This document shows, piece after piece, positions 5,382 to 63,596 of a stretch of DNA of 64,000 nucleotides; positions within the stretch are counted from its first letter, which is position 1; each line of letters starts with the position of its first letter. This stretch comes from Trichodesmium erythraeum GBRTRLIN201 (GTDB taxonomy: Bacteria > Cyanobacteriota > Cyanobacteriia > Cyanobacteriales > Microcoleaceae), in assembly GCA_018457135.1 (NCBI GenBank), contig JAGGDU010000123.1, forward strand, positions 63,505-127,504, given 5' to 3'. The translations under genes and the position numbers were made by a program. The notes under the pieces are model-generated. The model was given only the letters and a program-made list of their open reading frames with translations, was not told the origin of the DNA and did not search any database.

Positions 5382-6290
5382 ATGCTGGACATCAATTGAG
5401 TGTTCAAAGAAGATAGACTGTTAAAGGCATTAACGGGACTAAACCGTAGGGCATTTGATGAATTGTTGGAAGCTTTTTCTGTCCAGCTTGACTTGGAAGC
5501 GATCGCCACTACCCAAAAGCCTAGACTTTGAGACAAAGGAGAAAGTTATTTGCCAAACTGCGAGAAGCCAAAGAGCTGCTATTTTTTATTTTGCTCTATT
5601 TTTAATGCTATTCTACCTTTGATTTGCTGGAGGTATTATTTGACTTGCATCCCAGTCGAGCACACCCTTGGATGTTAATACTACAAATAATACTGGAGAA
5701 GTCCTTAGGTCAAAAAAAGGCCCAAATAGAACTTAAATGGGAAAGCGTTGGAGAATTTATGAGGAAATTTCCTTCAGCCTTAGAAGTAATAATTGATGGT
5801 ATAGAACGTCTAATTCAACACCCAAAATAGCAACAGAAGCAGAAAAATAATTACTCAGGTAAAAAAAAGCCTCATACTTGTAAACACTTAATTATGACAA
5901 ATAAGAACAAGAGAGTTTTAGTGCCTTCAAAATGACGAGAGGGTAAGGTACATGATCAACAGCAACTAGATTAAGAAAAACTTGTAGACTTTGTGATATA
6001 TAAAGTGAAAATTCATCTGGAATCAGGTCTTTAGGGATTACAAAAAGAATTTGTTAACATCAAAATACCCACAAAAAGCCAAGAAAGAAAGAAAGAAAGA
6101 ATTAACAAATAAACAGAAATAATCAAACAGAAAAAAAGTAGCGTTCTCCTTGCTGTATGAACACAAAATATCAGGAGTAAAAAGAGACAATGCAACAATA
6201 GGAATAATTAGAAATAAGCTAAAAGGTTTAAATGATTGCCTGATTTTAACTGCTGTATAACTATAGAATTTATATTTAATGGCAGCATAA
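5382..6290 (+). pseudogene. IS5-type (DDE_Tnp_4) transposase, degenerate
   Basis: Reading across frames gives a nearly complete transposase of the cyanobacterial IS5/DDE_Tnp_4 kind: MLDIN, then DRLLKALTGLNRRAFDELL (N-terminal helical domain), FDLLEVLFDLHPSRAHPW, IDGIERLIQHPK (first catalytic Asp), YSGKKKPHTCKH, REGKVHDQQQLD, GLQKEFVNIKIP, GVKRDNATIGIIRNKLK and NLYLMAA at the end. It is interrupted by a stop six codons in, several further stops and frameshifts, and an AAGA microsatellite near 6085-6105. The longest intact piece is 5624-5830. It cannot make active transposase. A 108-codon open frame on the opposite strand (6038-6364) is only its shadow. Confidence 0.85.
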
Positions 6291-23399: not shown

Positions 23400-23985
23400 T
23401 GCTGTAATTATAGATGATCATAAATGATGCCAGATTATAGCCAAAGGCTTACGTGCCCTTGCTACCCGTCCGGTGACGCTGGATATGACTGGATTTTTTT
23501 ATTGATTATAAATTCAATTCCTTAGCGACTGCTTTCCATTCGGCTCAAATTGGTTCCATTAATGGTGAATGAAATGCATGAGATACCTGCAATATTTTGG
23601 ATTTAATATTTTGGATTTAATATTTTGGATTTAATATTTTGGATTTAATATTTTGGATTTAATATTTTGAATTTAATTTTTTCTGATTCTAAAGCGCTGA
23701 CAATTTCCTTAACTTCTGTTACCTCACCAGAAATGACCACACTTTTCGGTTCATTTATCCCTGCGATCGCTAATTTATCCCCATTAGCTGTTAATTTTTT
23801 TTTTACCTTGGCTACTGTTGCTATCACAGCTACCATTTCTCCTTCTGGAGGTAATGACTGCATTAACCTTCCTCTAGCTGCCATTAGTTTCAGACCATCT
23901 TCTCAAAAGAAAACTCCGGCTACTGTTGCTACCACATATCCTCCTACACTAGGATCCATCACTACATCTGGTTGACAGCATTTTT
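23400..23985 (-). pseudogene. Polyketide synthase acyltransferase (AT) domain remnant
   Basis: Read leftward, this matches a malonyl-CoA:ACP acyltransferase domain in order: PDVVM, then SVGGYVVATVAGVFF (the GHSVGEYVAA active-site region, here with GHS changed to DPS), EDGLKLMAARGRLMQSLPPE, MVAVIATV, INEPKSVVISGE, IKFKIL, then VSHAFHSPLMEPI, AEWKAVAKEL and PVISSVTGRVA. Stops and frameshifts interrupt it, and a 14-bp tandem repeat splits it at 23591-23674. The longest open piece is 23645-23884. No ketosynthase or other PKS domain is nearby, so a fragment of a larger lost gene is likely. Confidence 0.85.
23591..23674. repeat. 14-bp tandem repeat, six copies, inside the AT remnant
   Basis: Five perfect copies of AATATTTTGGATTT (23591-23660) and one variant AATATTTTGAATTT (23661-23674). 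Removing five units restores one open frame reading KFKILQVSHAFHS on the minus strand, the canonical AT-domain sequence, so the repeat expanded inside a real gene. Confidence 0.9.
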
Positions 23986-33889: not shown

Positions 33890-34991
33890 ATGAAGACAAA
33901 ATTAGGTCACCCCATGCTACCACAAGCTAATAATGATGAATTAGCACGGCAAAATTTTCAGTTTGAGAAAATATATGTTTAAAAAAATGCTCCCTGAATT
34001 GAAGGTGGTATAGGAAGAAACTGTCAAACCACAATTTGAAGTAGAAAACCAACGTCTTCCTAAAGACCGTTATGAAATTCGGCGGGGTATGAAGCAACAA
34101 CAATGCTATAAATGGTTTAGTAGCTTAAAGCGGACTATCCAAGAGATGATGTGGGAGTCAGTTGCGACTACAGTCGAACGTCAGCTACCAGAATTGATAG
34201 AACAAGCAAAAGATCGAGAAGCACCCCAAGGAACAGTTACCTTAGACCCTGAATTGAAAATACCAGCCTACCAAACTGCGGTAGATATTCATTGTATGCC
34301 TGGGGGATATAATGGTGAATACACTCAAGATGATATATCTGCTGGTGCTATCTATAATTTAGGTGTTTATATATATAGTCTGGCAAACCGTGACTCCATT
34401 CGCGATGACAGAGTTCAGACAGTTATCCACAAATTCTTGAAGCAGGAATACCCAAATTTTCAGCCTGGAAAAATTCTAGATATGGGTTGTACGATAGGTG
34501 ATAACACTTTGCCTTATGTAGATGCTTACCCAAATGCTGAAGTTTATGGTATCGATCTAGCTCGGGCTATATTACGCTATGGTCATGCGCGAGCCGAGTT
34601 TTTAGAAAAACGGGTGCATTTTAGTCAACAGAATGCCGAGAAAACTAACTTTCAGGATGAGTCATTTTATTTGGTGGTAAGTCATATTTTACTACATGAA
34701 ATACCTGTACCAGCAATTCAGAATGTTTTCCGCGAAAGTTATCGTTTGTTAGCTCCAGGTGGAATAATGATACATCAAGATGCGCGTTTGTATTGTCATC
34801 TAGATGTATATACTGCGTTCCTCTACGATGAAGAAACAACTAATAATAATGAACCCTTCTGGAGTTCGATGCGAGATTTAGATTTAGTAGCTGTAGCAGA
34901 AGAAGCAGGTTTTTCCAGAGATAGTCTCATTGAAACGCTACTGGTAAAAAATAATGGAATGCAGTTATTTATTATTGTTGGTACTAAATAA
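33890..34991 (+). pseudogene. Class I SAM-dependent methyltransferase with broken 5' end
   Basis: The intact part (ATG at 34089, 300 residues) holds a Rossmann methyltransferase domain: LDMGCTIGDNTLPY (SAM motif I), EVYGIDLARAILRYG, SHILLHEIP and RLLAPGGIMIHQD. Coding similarity continues upstream to ATG 33890 (MKTKLGHPMLPQANNDELAR), with LPELKVV and FEVENQRLPKDRYEIRRG leading straight into the intact part. The join needs a one-base frameshift near 33979 and reading through TAG at about 34011. So the original protein was about 365 residues. The truncated form keeps the SAM-binding domain and might still work if translated from 34089. It heads a same-strand group with a small protein, DUF3598 and a glutathione transferase. 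Confidence 0.7.
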
Positions 34992-35011
34992 AAAAAAAAG
35001 ACAGAAAAAAA

Positions 35012-42639: not shown

Positions 42640-43287
42640 CTATTGATGAGCGATCGCTAAGTCTACTTGCTTCAACAAAGCTTCTAAGGTAGAGGAATTA
42701 TCCACAACAATATCCCCCTTTTGACATTTTTCTGATAGGGACATCTGATTATTAATTCGAGTGTAAGCTTGTTCTTGAGTCAAACAGTCACGTTTCATTA
42801 ATCTCTCTATTTGTTGTTGGAATGGAGCATATATAACCCAAATTTCTGTTACTAAGTCAGTCATCTTAGCTTCAAATAACAATGGTATTACTAATACCGC
42901 TGTAACATCTTGAGAAGTAATTTTATGGGATGTTACCTGTATATAATTTGTCTGCTCAAATTCACTATTTTTGGCAATAAAATACTTAATATTCTGCTCA
43001 AAGCGATCGCGGACATAAGGATGAATTTGTTTTTGTAACCAGAGTAACTCTTTTTGATCATTAAAAACAATCTCTCCTAATTGTCGTCTATCTAAATTAC
43101 CATTAGGTAAGACAATATTTTGACCGTAGTGTTCTACTATGCTCTTTAAAATTGATGAACCAGGTTTTACAGCTTCTCGCCCATAAACATCCGCATCCCA
43201 AATTGGAAACTGATAGTTTTTACTCAAATAATTAGAGACAGTAGTTTTTCCTGTGCTAATACCACCAGTTAAACCAATTAAGCGCAT
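42640..43287 (-). CDS. coaE: Dephospho-CoA kinase
   Basis: Phosphorylates the 3' hydroxyl of dephospho-CoA with ATP, the last step of coenzyme A synthesis. The 215-residue protein begins MRLIGLTGGISTGKTTVSNYL with the P-loop, then FPIWDADVYGREAV (the CoA-domain DAD motif), RRQLGEIVF, and LVIPLLFEAKM. An insertion of about 15 residues rich in Ser/Thr/Gln lies before the last of these (FEQTNYIQVTSHKITSQDVT), near residues 108-128. The first enzyme of the CoA pathway, coaX, lies at the far end of this window. Confidence 0.93.
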   Translation of the reverse strand: MRLIGLTGGISTGKTTVSNYLSKNYQFPIWDADVYGREAVKPGSSILKSIVEHYGQNIVLPNGNLDRRQLGEIVFNDQKELLWLQKQIHPYVRDRFEQNIKYFIAKNSEFEQTNYIQVTSHKITSQDVTAVLVIPLLFEAKMTDLVTEIWVIYAPFQQQIERLMKRDCLTQEQAYTRINNQMSLSEKCQKGDIVVDNSSTLEALLKQVDLAIAHQ

Positions 43288-55003: not shown

Positions 55004-55486
55004 ATTAAAGAAGATAGTAGTCCTAAAATAAAATAGTAAACAGAAAGGAGATTATAACTATTAACTAACTCCGGTACTTTCTATTTATTGTTCTCTGTGT
55101 TCTAGTTCTGATTATTACTTATTTTTTCTTATGATAGTAAAGATTATTAAAAGTATCGGTGAAAGTTTGTAGTTATTCAGGACAATAATATTCTTGACAA
55201 GATTACTGCTTTTTTCCATATTTATGAGTTCTCTGATGGCTACATAGAGAAAGTTTCATCATCAAAAGGATTAAAGGAAAATAATTATATGACCATTCTC
55301 ATAGTTTCTTGATGCACTACCGAAGGTTATTGTTGCCTATATTAATTACTTAATAACTGAAATGTGATCTAAGTATAATATTAATGCAGAAAAACTGGTA
55401 TAATGGTCTAATAGAGACTAGAAGTAGATATACAAAACCTCTAGTCTCTGTTTAGTAAGCTAATTATTCAACATGTTAATTAACCA
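55004..55486. other. Intergenic region
   Basis: Between the convergent ptxD and CADD-like genes. It contains a word TTAATTACTTAATAACTGAA shared with about 2360 and, in part, 31620. No clear terminator. Confidence 0.4.
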
Positions 55487-56603: not shown

Positions 56604-56691
56604 AGGACTTACGTAAAGACACTAATTGTAGTTTAAATATCGGAAATAATTATCAAAAATACACCACATATAGAAACAATACGTAAGTCCT
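56604..56691. mobile_element. Small inverted-repeat element (AGGACTTACGTA ends)
   Basis: AGGACTTACGTA (56604-56615) and TACGTAAGTCCT (56680-56691) are perfect 12-bp inverted repeats, flanked by TATATA on both sides, which fits a target duplication. The 88-base interior is AT-rich and codes for nothing. Diverged members or single ends lie at 57893-57980, near 27064 and near 38328. Confidence 0.75.
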
Positions 56692-56707
56692 GATATATAT
56701 ATAGAAA

Positions 56708-61959: not shown

Positions 61960-62802
61960 AATTTTCTTCTTTATTTTGATTGAATAACCATTTTATAATA
62001 TACTATTTTTAGTCAAATAGCCAAGATTAAATTACCTTTAAAGTATCTTGGATAAATATGGTTTTCAATCTAAAAATATTTTGGAGATAATCTTAACTAT
62101 TAGTAAGCTATTTTTAACATTAAATAACTACCTTATTATTCCTTTTATGACTCCATAAATATATTTATTTAATATAAAAAAAAGTCATACTTTATAAAAA
62201 TTGCAAATCATTTTTTATGACTAAAATGATGCTTTGCCTGACAATATATTTCGCACAAGTAACAACTTGATAGTTTTTCACTTATCAACTCTACTTTTAC
62301 TTTGGCACTATAGTTTTCAGACAATATTTATAAATAGGGGAACAATAGTTAGCGAAAAACCAAAACACAAACCTTTTTTAAATTACTGACATGTAATTAT
62401 ATATCTGGAAAAAGATATCCTTTAAAATTTAGTCAATTACTTGAGAATAGCTAAAAAGTGAAGTCATAATTTGTAAAGTTAGTAACTTGTTGAACAGGGA
62501 GAGACTCCCAACCAATAAAGGAATAAAACCCATCAAAACATATGGCTGGTCCTAAGTTAAGCAGCATCAAAAAATAGACATCGGTGTTGTTATAGTGCTA
62601 TGTGCGGGCAAGCAACATGATCCAAACTATCAACCATAAACGTCTTGGTCTTGGCATCAAACAATAAGACCATGCCAGTAACAGCTCTCACTTTGGATGG
62701 AGTCATGCTTGCATATTTAATTTAAGGTGCAAGCTTTGAGTAGAGACTTTGTTGCACAGCTAGAATAGTTAATAATATTAGGTAATGACAGGAAATATTC
62801 AC
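61960..62802. other. Intergenic region with an unidentified coding-like piece
   Basis: AT-rich. On the minus strand near 62560-62720 a stop-free stretch reads TPSKVRAVTGMVLLFDAKTK and then TFMVDSLDHVACPHIAL before a stop; it looks like protein coding sequence but I cannot identify it. Confidence 0.35.
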
Positions 62803-63596
62803 CTAGTCTAGTTGAATATTTGTTACTCTTGCCATTCCCCAAAAAATTAAATCAGGTGCATCTATAACTATTGCAGCTAGTTGAGGAAACAGGGTTGTGA
62901 AATGAGTAAATAGTATGGAGTGATCCCCTCCAGTAAATACTATTTTACTTTCAGGAAATTCTTCCAACCAAGATACAACGTAATTTTTCATACCTGCCAA
63001 TATAGTGTAAATGACTCCACTTTGAATTGCTATTCCTGTTTCTTTTGCCCACCGAGTGGGTAACTCTACAGGTATATCAGTTAATGGTAACATAGCTGTT
63101 CCCTTTGCTAAGGATGATAACTGTAATCTTAGCCCTGGTAAAATAGCTCCTCCCATTATTTTTTTTTTGCATTGGCACCAGTAAAGGTCATTGCCGTACC
63201 AGTATCTATAACTAGTATAGGCCAACCAAAGTTTGTACCTGCACCTAACACTGCCAAAGCTCTATCTATTCCTAGAGTAGGATAAAGTCCTTGCAACGGT
63301 AACTTATTCAGGGTAATCATATCGGAATCAGGATAAGTTTGCCAAAGTGCTGTTTGCTCAGGAACTACTGATGCTATTAATAAAGGTATCCTATGATTCA
63401 AGTTTATGTTCTTAGTTTCTAATATATTTTTGAGGCTTTTTTCTATTCCCTTTTCCTCATTTATATGAGATTTAATTTCTATTTGTTGAAGATGATTAGC
63501 ATCCCAAGTATTCTGAATTATTTTATCAGTAAAATAACCAAAATGTAACCGGGAATTTCCAATCATTAGACCTAACCATTTTTTACTTTCAGGCAT
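62803..63596 (-). CDS. coaX: Type III pantothenate kinase, split by a frameshift at an A10 tract
   Basis: Phosphorylates pantothenate in the first committed step of coenzyme A synthesis. The N-terminal half (63156-63596) has IGNSRLHFG (phosphate loop), SVVPEQTALW, GIDRALAVLGAG and VIDTGTAMTFTGA; the C-terminal half (62803-63225) has MGGAILPGLRLQLSSLAKGTA and FTGGDHSILF. Both are needed for one enzyme. They are in different frames, joined at ten A residues (minus strand, complement of 63159-63168). Eleven A (or eight) would give a continuous protein of about 265 residues. This is either a sequencing error, a mutation, or slippage. Confidence 0.85.

Follow-up and report, generated by a model that had tools for sequence, protein, structure and literature searches.

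An A10 tract divides the type III pantothenate kinase gene of Trichodesmium erythraeum: possible rescue by decoding slippage

In the 64,000 nucleotides of Trichodesmium erythraeum GBRTRLIN201 DNA analysed here (the window, G000:C123:63505-127504; G000 is the genome it belongs to, 7,221,323 bases in 241 contigs, 99.97% complete), the coaX gene for a type III pantothenate kinase lies on the minus strand at 62803-63596 as two reading frames that meet at a run of ten A residues. The N half (63156-63596, minus strand) encodes 146 residues from an ATG at 63596 to a TAA at 63158-63156, contains GIDRALAVLGAG and DTGTAMTFTG and ends in GANAKKK; the C half (62803-63165, minus strand) occupies another frame and runs from IMGGAILPG to a TAG at 62805-62803. 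The tract itself (63159-63168, minus strand; T10 on the plus strand of the window) stands in the context GC-A10-TAATGG and is read in the zero frame as GCA AAA AAA AAA TAA, thereby including A_AAA_AAA in zero-frame phase, and the stop codon of the N half overlaps an ATG in the frame of the C half (TAATG, 63154-63158, minus strand), a possible site of re-initiation. The net shift is that of a single lost A or of two extra ones: if the message gains an A, or the ribosome steps back by one base, reading continues into the frame ATA ATG GGA, and two fewer A's would also reopen the gene but leave the loop encoded at this site one residue shorter.

While no continuous reading frame spans the gene, the two halves together cover the Pan_kinase profile along its length, positions 6-141 of the 205 in Pfam PF03309 matching the N half and 143-202 the C half, both above the cut-off. 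On the NCBIfam model PRK13331 (253 positions) the N half aligns to 5-133 and the C half to 133-250, and therefore nothing is missing between them. Neither half reaches the equivalog cut-off of 251 bits by itself (168.1 and 144.9 bits), an intact relative (L035) scoring 332.7 bits on the same model, and inspection of both translations revealed no further stop or shift in either. The profile matches thus confirm the identity of the split gene as a type III pantothenate kinase and, together with the frames, bear out the original prediction that two halves of this enzyme meet in different frames at ten A's.

A PF03309 match was found in 56 of 59 genomes, G000 included. In 55 of the 58 others the gene is a single match without internal stop (the short frame of G010, 185 aa, is cut by a contig end), and the profile found no match in the remaining three, G007, G044 and G002. 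The last of these belongs to the same genus set, which comprises seven Trichodesmium and Okeania genomes (G000 to G006, G000 included); at 94% completeness and in 1500 contigs, it may lack the match owing to an assembly gap. The named records nearest to the N half come from Okeania sp. SIO3I5 (83% identity) and Trichodesmium sp. MAG_R02 (79%), which the accessible text of one report equates with T. thiebautii (PMC9189399).

The five genus orthologues carry the tract only as A6 or A9, and always in frame: GCC/GCT AAA AAA CAA/GAA ATA GTG in G001, G005 and G006, and CAA/GAA AAA AAA ATA GTG in G003 and G004. The break is thus seen in one assembly and does not recur in any of these five orthologues. 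Compared with the A6 form, G000 has an A both where the first codon ends and where the CAA/GAA codon begins; the in-frame length for these substitutions is A11, whereas G000 has A10. Where G000 has the ATG of TAATG, the relatives carry GTG. Of 30 homologous loci tried, 29 were readable at this site (L007 gave none), and in all 29 the hairpin loop, counted from where the strand ends (TG in 26, TA in three) to the following GG, is eight residues long. Such constancy matches an A11, or a -1 slip on A10, and not an A8; adding one A, as proposed earlier, also restores a continuous frame. In the structure predicted for an intact orthologue (27 sequences, pLDDT 92.6), the break falls in the turn that links strand 135-141 to strand 146-154, so that the cut would separate two neighbouring strands.

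Two further observations concern these relatives. In MAG_R02 the N part of coaX occurs a second time about 2 kb from the intact gene, as an incomplete copy with stops (L036:3646-3924; G001:C457, about 5914-6192). Moreover, the cyanobacterial CoaX proteins (L003-L032; in the window at about 63560, minus strand) read LMIGN or similar where the solved relative 2h3g has LDVGN, and an Asp three residues before the N occurs in none of 29 cyanobacterial CoaX proteins; in other type III kinases this Asp matters.

How far can the length of such a tract be trusted in this assembly? Long A runs are often miscalled by an insertion or a deletion. We scored the frame on both sides of A/T runs with a codon model in 81 pieces of G000 (1,499,207 bases, the window included). 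With 180-base flanks, the runs in frame and off frame numbered 929 and 6 at A/T6, 287 and 4 at A/T7, 83 and 2 at A/T8, 10 and 0 at A/T9, and 0 and 1 at A/T10, the lone scorable A/T10 run being coaX itself; 93 of the 95 coding runs of A/T8-9 are thus in frame and two are off. With 120-base flanks the counts are 79 and 2 at A/T8, 8 and 1 at A/T9, and 0 and 2 at A/T10; random eight-base windows from the first 460.6 kb were off frame in 40 of 7967 cases. A break called with the shorter flanks at the A10 at 34990-34999 of the window was rejected, as it reads as a natural gene boundary, and a possible frame break at an A9 elsewhere in G000 (L132:5877-5885) is visible with the 120-base flanks only. 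The assembly reports 147 A10 and 10 A11 runs, against 326 and 28 in the six relatives together, in like proportions (p = 0.59). For its size, G000 has more A10 runs (147 in 7.2 Mb) than these relatives do (32 to 80 in 4.2-10.5 Mb). Taken together, the intact frames at A/T8-9 and the ordinary A11:A10 ratio lead us to reject general miscalling of homopolymers up to A8-A9 and to see no special lack of A11; at A11 itself a single miscall may nonetheless have occurred, and no in-frame coding A11 was found among the G000 runs inspected.

To place coaX among its like, we inspected 113 distinct A/T runs of at least ten in G000, drawn from its 157 A10 and A11 runs, and in the relatives 24 loci for 28 A11 runs and 25 A10 loci for 326 A10 runs. 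Tracts were counted if coding sequence lay on both sides and the gene was otherwise intact, both as judged by our own reading, with transposases excluded. Six tracts of at least ten A's are in frame, in five genes (L221 in G000, L090 in G003, L091 in G006, L289 in G002 and two in L298 of G006), and six are off frame (coaX and L193 in G000, L098 in G006, L106 in G001, L116 in G004 and L293 in G005), every one of the latter having in-frame orthologues in the genus. Set against the 93:2 of the A/T8-9 runs in G000, this 6:6 gives a Fisher p of about 1e-5, a descriptive value from an incomplete census over differing genome sets. Adding the transposase-like L233 (G000, in frame) and L108 (G002, off frame), which are left out of the 6:6, and the unconfirmed L301 makes it 7:8, with a likewise descriptive p = 6e-7 against the same 93:2. 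Within G000 alone, 1:2 gives p = 0.004, and 2:2 with L233 gives p = 0.007, again descriptively. Five of the six confirmed breaks are one base short (or two long) and one is the reverse (p = 0.22). L280 and L282, the latter in G000, are further in-frame A10 tracts that were met by way of L116 and stand outside these counts.

The individual comparisons are instructive. L193 has orthologues with open frames in G001 (222 aa), G004 (232 aa) and G003 (225 aa); the tract, read in those of G001 and G003, is A9 and in frame in both. The two confirmed off-frame A10 genes of G000, coaX and L193, are each one base short of an in-frame A11. L098 (1502-1512, G006) and L106 (987-997, G001) are one gene, off frame at A11 with opposite polarity in the two genomes, while in five others a single frame of 349-361 aa spans both parts; its C part looks lysozyme-like by sequence, and a search against NCBIfam gave no match for the gene. 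In G004 the frame of a long acidic gene breaks at an A11 (L116:1502-1512); the gene is in frame with A10 in G003, G002 and G000 and with A9 in G006. Finally, L293 is off frame at A10 in G005, its orthologues being in frame with A8 in G006 and A5 in G001. These comparisons suggest that long tracts arise repeatedly and break the frame while the surrounding genes stay recognisable.

Several candidates were set aside. The A10 break of L210 (G000, C46) was dropped because it sits in a glutathione-transferase-like remnant with other stops, a pseudogene. L301 (G002) looks off frame but stays unconfirmed, as it could be compared with L221 alone, at 37% identity and on one side. The second tract of L289/L295, as well as L300 and L311, were read as natural gene ends and not as breaks, and the remaining listed runs went uncounted because they sit where a gene begins or ends or are flanked by coding sequence on a single side. 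The window itself has, at 23650-23950 on the minus strand, a fragment resembling a polyketide synthase acyltransferase domain; the in-frame A10 within it (23795-23804) was dropped as belonging to a relic. Transposase-like genes split at an A8 (L124:12484-12491, G000) and at an A11 (L108:1502-1512, G002) may be cases of IS630-type recoding.

The first alternative to weigh is that the tract is misread or mixed, with A11 in most cells and coaX an ordinary intact gene. That coaX and L193 both fall one A below an in-frame A11 would be expected of such an error, as would the raised A10 density of G000 and the single unbroken match in every other genome with the gene. On the other hand, the assembly keeps the frame at nearly all coding A/T8-9 runs and at the A10 runs of L221 and L282, it reports ten A11 runs in a proportion like that of its relatives, and off-frame A10 or A11 tracts occur in four other assemblies too, among them one gene whose frame is broken in two species. 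The original prediction had deemed a read error equally possible; a miscalled A is indeed a serious contender, with a probability of about one third, but in view of the frames at A/T8-9, the A11:A10 ratio and the five further off-frame tracts in the genus, "equally" was slightly too generous.

Could the gene simply have been lost? As a young pseudogene, coaX would have been abandoned recently, with CoA supplied by salvage or through a different kinase. Taken at face value the break is real, and the partial copy L036 in G001 attests that coaX copies can decay in the genus. However, a profile search of the whole assembly found the split coaX as the sole PF03309 gene, only its two halves matching, and the type I pantothenate kinase model TIGR00554 gave two matches in G000 of 25.9 and 21.8 bits, far from the cut-off of 235, which by translation look like phosphoribulokinase-type proteins; a search for type II kinases was without match in G000 but, being equally silent in all of its controls, carries no information. 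The earlier remark that no other pantothenate kinase is visible thus holds assembly-wide as far as the type I and type III models can show. Also, coaE, for dephospho-CoA kinase, is intact in the same window (42640-43287, minus strand; TIGR00152, 196 bits against a cut-off of 65.55), and the final step of CoA synthesis is therefore retained. Finally, coaX has no further lesion and is constrained as in its relatives: when G000 is paired with each of seven relatives, dN/dS (NG86) comes to 0.25-0.55 in the N half and 0.26-0.44 in the C half, and pairs among those seven give 0.22-0.54 and 0.12-0.55. Both halves thus appear under purifying selection like intact orthologues, in a pairwise measure to which a very recent loss would be invisible, and the break is therefore either young or tolerated. 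All in all, we consider a young pseudogene unlikely, with a slim chance. Unlikely too, and the least probable of the readings, is a two-piece enzyme in which the N half stops at the TAA, translation re-initiates at the overlapping ATG and the halves assemble: the TAATG overlap, with ATG in place of the GTG of the genus relatives, and the conservation of both halves would suit it, but unsplit relatives have the start-like GTG at the same place, and the predicted cut in a tight turn between neighbouring strands would oblige the pieces to fold together.

The reading we prefer, at a probability of roughly one half, is that the tract truly contracted from A11 to A10 and that full-length CoaX is still made by slippage of RNA polymerase or of the ribosome, as far as can be judged from sequence. 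Two changes to A (GCC/GCT to GCA, and CAA/GAA to AAA) would have joined shorter runs into an A11. This A11, of a length rare in the genus and probably unstable, would then have lost one base, a contraction suggested by the comparison with relatives, and the resulting A10 breaks the frame. RNA polymerase may insert an extra A, or the ribosome may slip back by one base on A_AAA_AAA, and in a fraction of expression events this would yield a full-length CoaX of about 264 residues with the eight-residue hairpin loop. Beside the transcriptional slippage first proposed, the sequence also permits a -1 ribosomal slip on the heptamer or re-initiation at TAATG. The slippery heptamer of a -1 programmed frameshift is present in zero-frame phase (GC A_AAA_AAA AAA TAA), and no significant RNA fold was found downstream of the tract (z = 0.08 and -0.21 against shuffles, in a test that leaves pseudoknots outside). 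As no downstream RNA structure stands out, we lean slightly to the transcriptional route. Like the polyA-tract genes of Blochmannia and Buchnera discussed below, coaX is broken inside an A run of at least nine and has no other lesion.

Does this extend beyond coaX? One may speculate that off-frame A10-A11 tracts are generally tolerated in Trichodesmium and Okeania, slippage of RNA polymerase or ribosome being so frequent that genes, the sole visible pantothenate kinase among them, drift between in-frame and off-frame lengths without loss and tract length tunes the dose of full protein. We hold this to be doubtful. It weighs against the preferred reading of coaX that hypermutability of tracts of at least ten A's alone could give the pattern seen in the genus without any rescue, and that the other off-frame genes, which are not known to be essential, may simply be broken.

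The translation machinery of chloroplasts is of cyanobacterial descent. In a chloroplast atpB mutant (I-iota), a +1 change giving A11 is partially rescued by recoding, for which the authors, in the accessible part of their report, favour ribosomal frameshifting, and a stem-loop is predicted downstream (PMC8254509). As far as that text goes, the two cases share an A11-type tract in lysine codons of an important gene, and differ in that coaX is one A short and has no significant downstream fold, whereas the atpB mutant is +1 with a predicted stem-loop. A second parallel comes from the endosymbionts Blochmannia and Buchnera: the available text describes eight genes of Blochmannia vafer with indels in polyA/polyT tracts, and reads the frameshifted polyA-tract genes of both endosymbionts as rescued by transcriptional slippage (PMC3017870). 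Common to them and coaX are a single indel in a long A tract, an otherwise intact and constrained gene, and an AT-rich genome, and their affected genes, in the part of the report at hand, include housekeeping functions, as here. Unlike these reduced endosymbionts, Trichodesmium is a cyanobacterium with a multi-megabase genome, and the present case is known from genomic sequence alone; also, we count 10 scorable A/T9 runs in 1.5 Mb against the 114-153 coding polyA tracts of at least nine given there per genome. According to excerpts from Baranov and colleagues, selection against A/T runs shows from a length of nine in a large share of genomes, and dnaX of Thermus thermophilus undergoes slippage at an A9 (PMC1088944); dnaX genes with A10 in another phylum are inferred to act alike in the accessible portion of a later paper (PMC3711429). 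Going by these excerpts, dnaX resembles our proposal in that slippage on an A run would give proteins from more than one frame, and contrasts with it in that the genomic frame of Thermus dnaX is full-length, with a short product put to use, while that of coaX gives the truncated product. Similarly, frameshifting in IS630-family transposases joins halves at an A run in the sections available (PMC5009743), and in both these and coaX the halves of one protein lie in two frames meeting at an A run, as judged from those sections. By its sequence, the G002 locus L108 looks like a transposase of this family, unlike coaX, a housekeeping gene with in-frame orthologues and no mobile element.

The phenomenon is known in kind; of note is its setting, the sole visible pantothenate kinase of a cyanobacterium with a large genome, whose sister genomes contain several similar tracts. 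In the open-licence literature we found nothing on transcriptional slippage in Trichodesmium or with cyanobacterial RNA polymerase and, among titles and the starts of abstracts, nothing relevant on Trichodesmium coaX or on homopolymer frameshifts in Trichodesmium. If the preferred reading is right, an important group of marine cyanobacteria has an enzyme of the CoA pathway that relies on decoding slippage, and annotation in this group would label working genes as pseudogenes; if the A10 is a miscall, it serves as a warning about the G000 assembly. Should tolerance of such tracts hold as a class, the polyA rescue of endosymbionts would extend to large-genome, free-living, nitrogen-fixing marine cyanobacteria. 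Candidate tracts in which slippage could be sought in RNA data are those of coaX, L193, L098/L106, L116 and L293.

The window also contains dispersed repeats. One lies just downstream of coaX at about 62339-62742, with several G000 copies among the matches listed; another, at about 55130-55321, has many G000 copies among the matches listed, and a third, at about 56604-56694, has dozens of copies in relatives among the matches listed.
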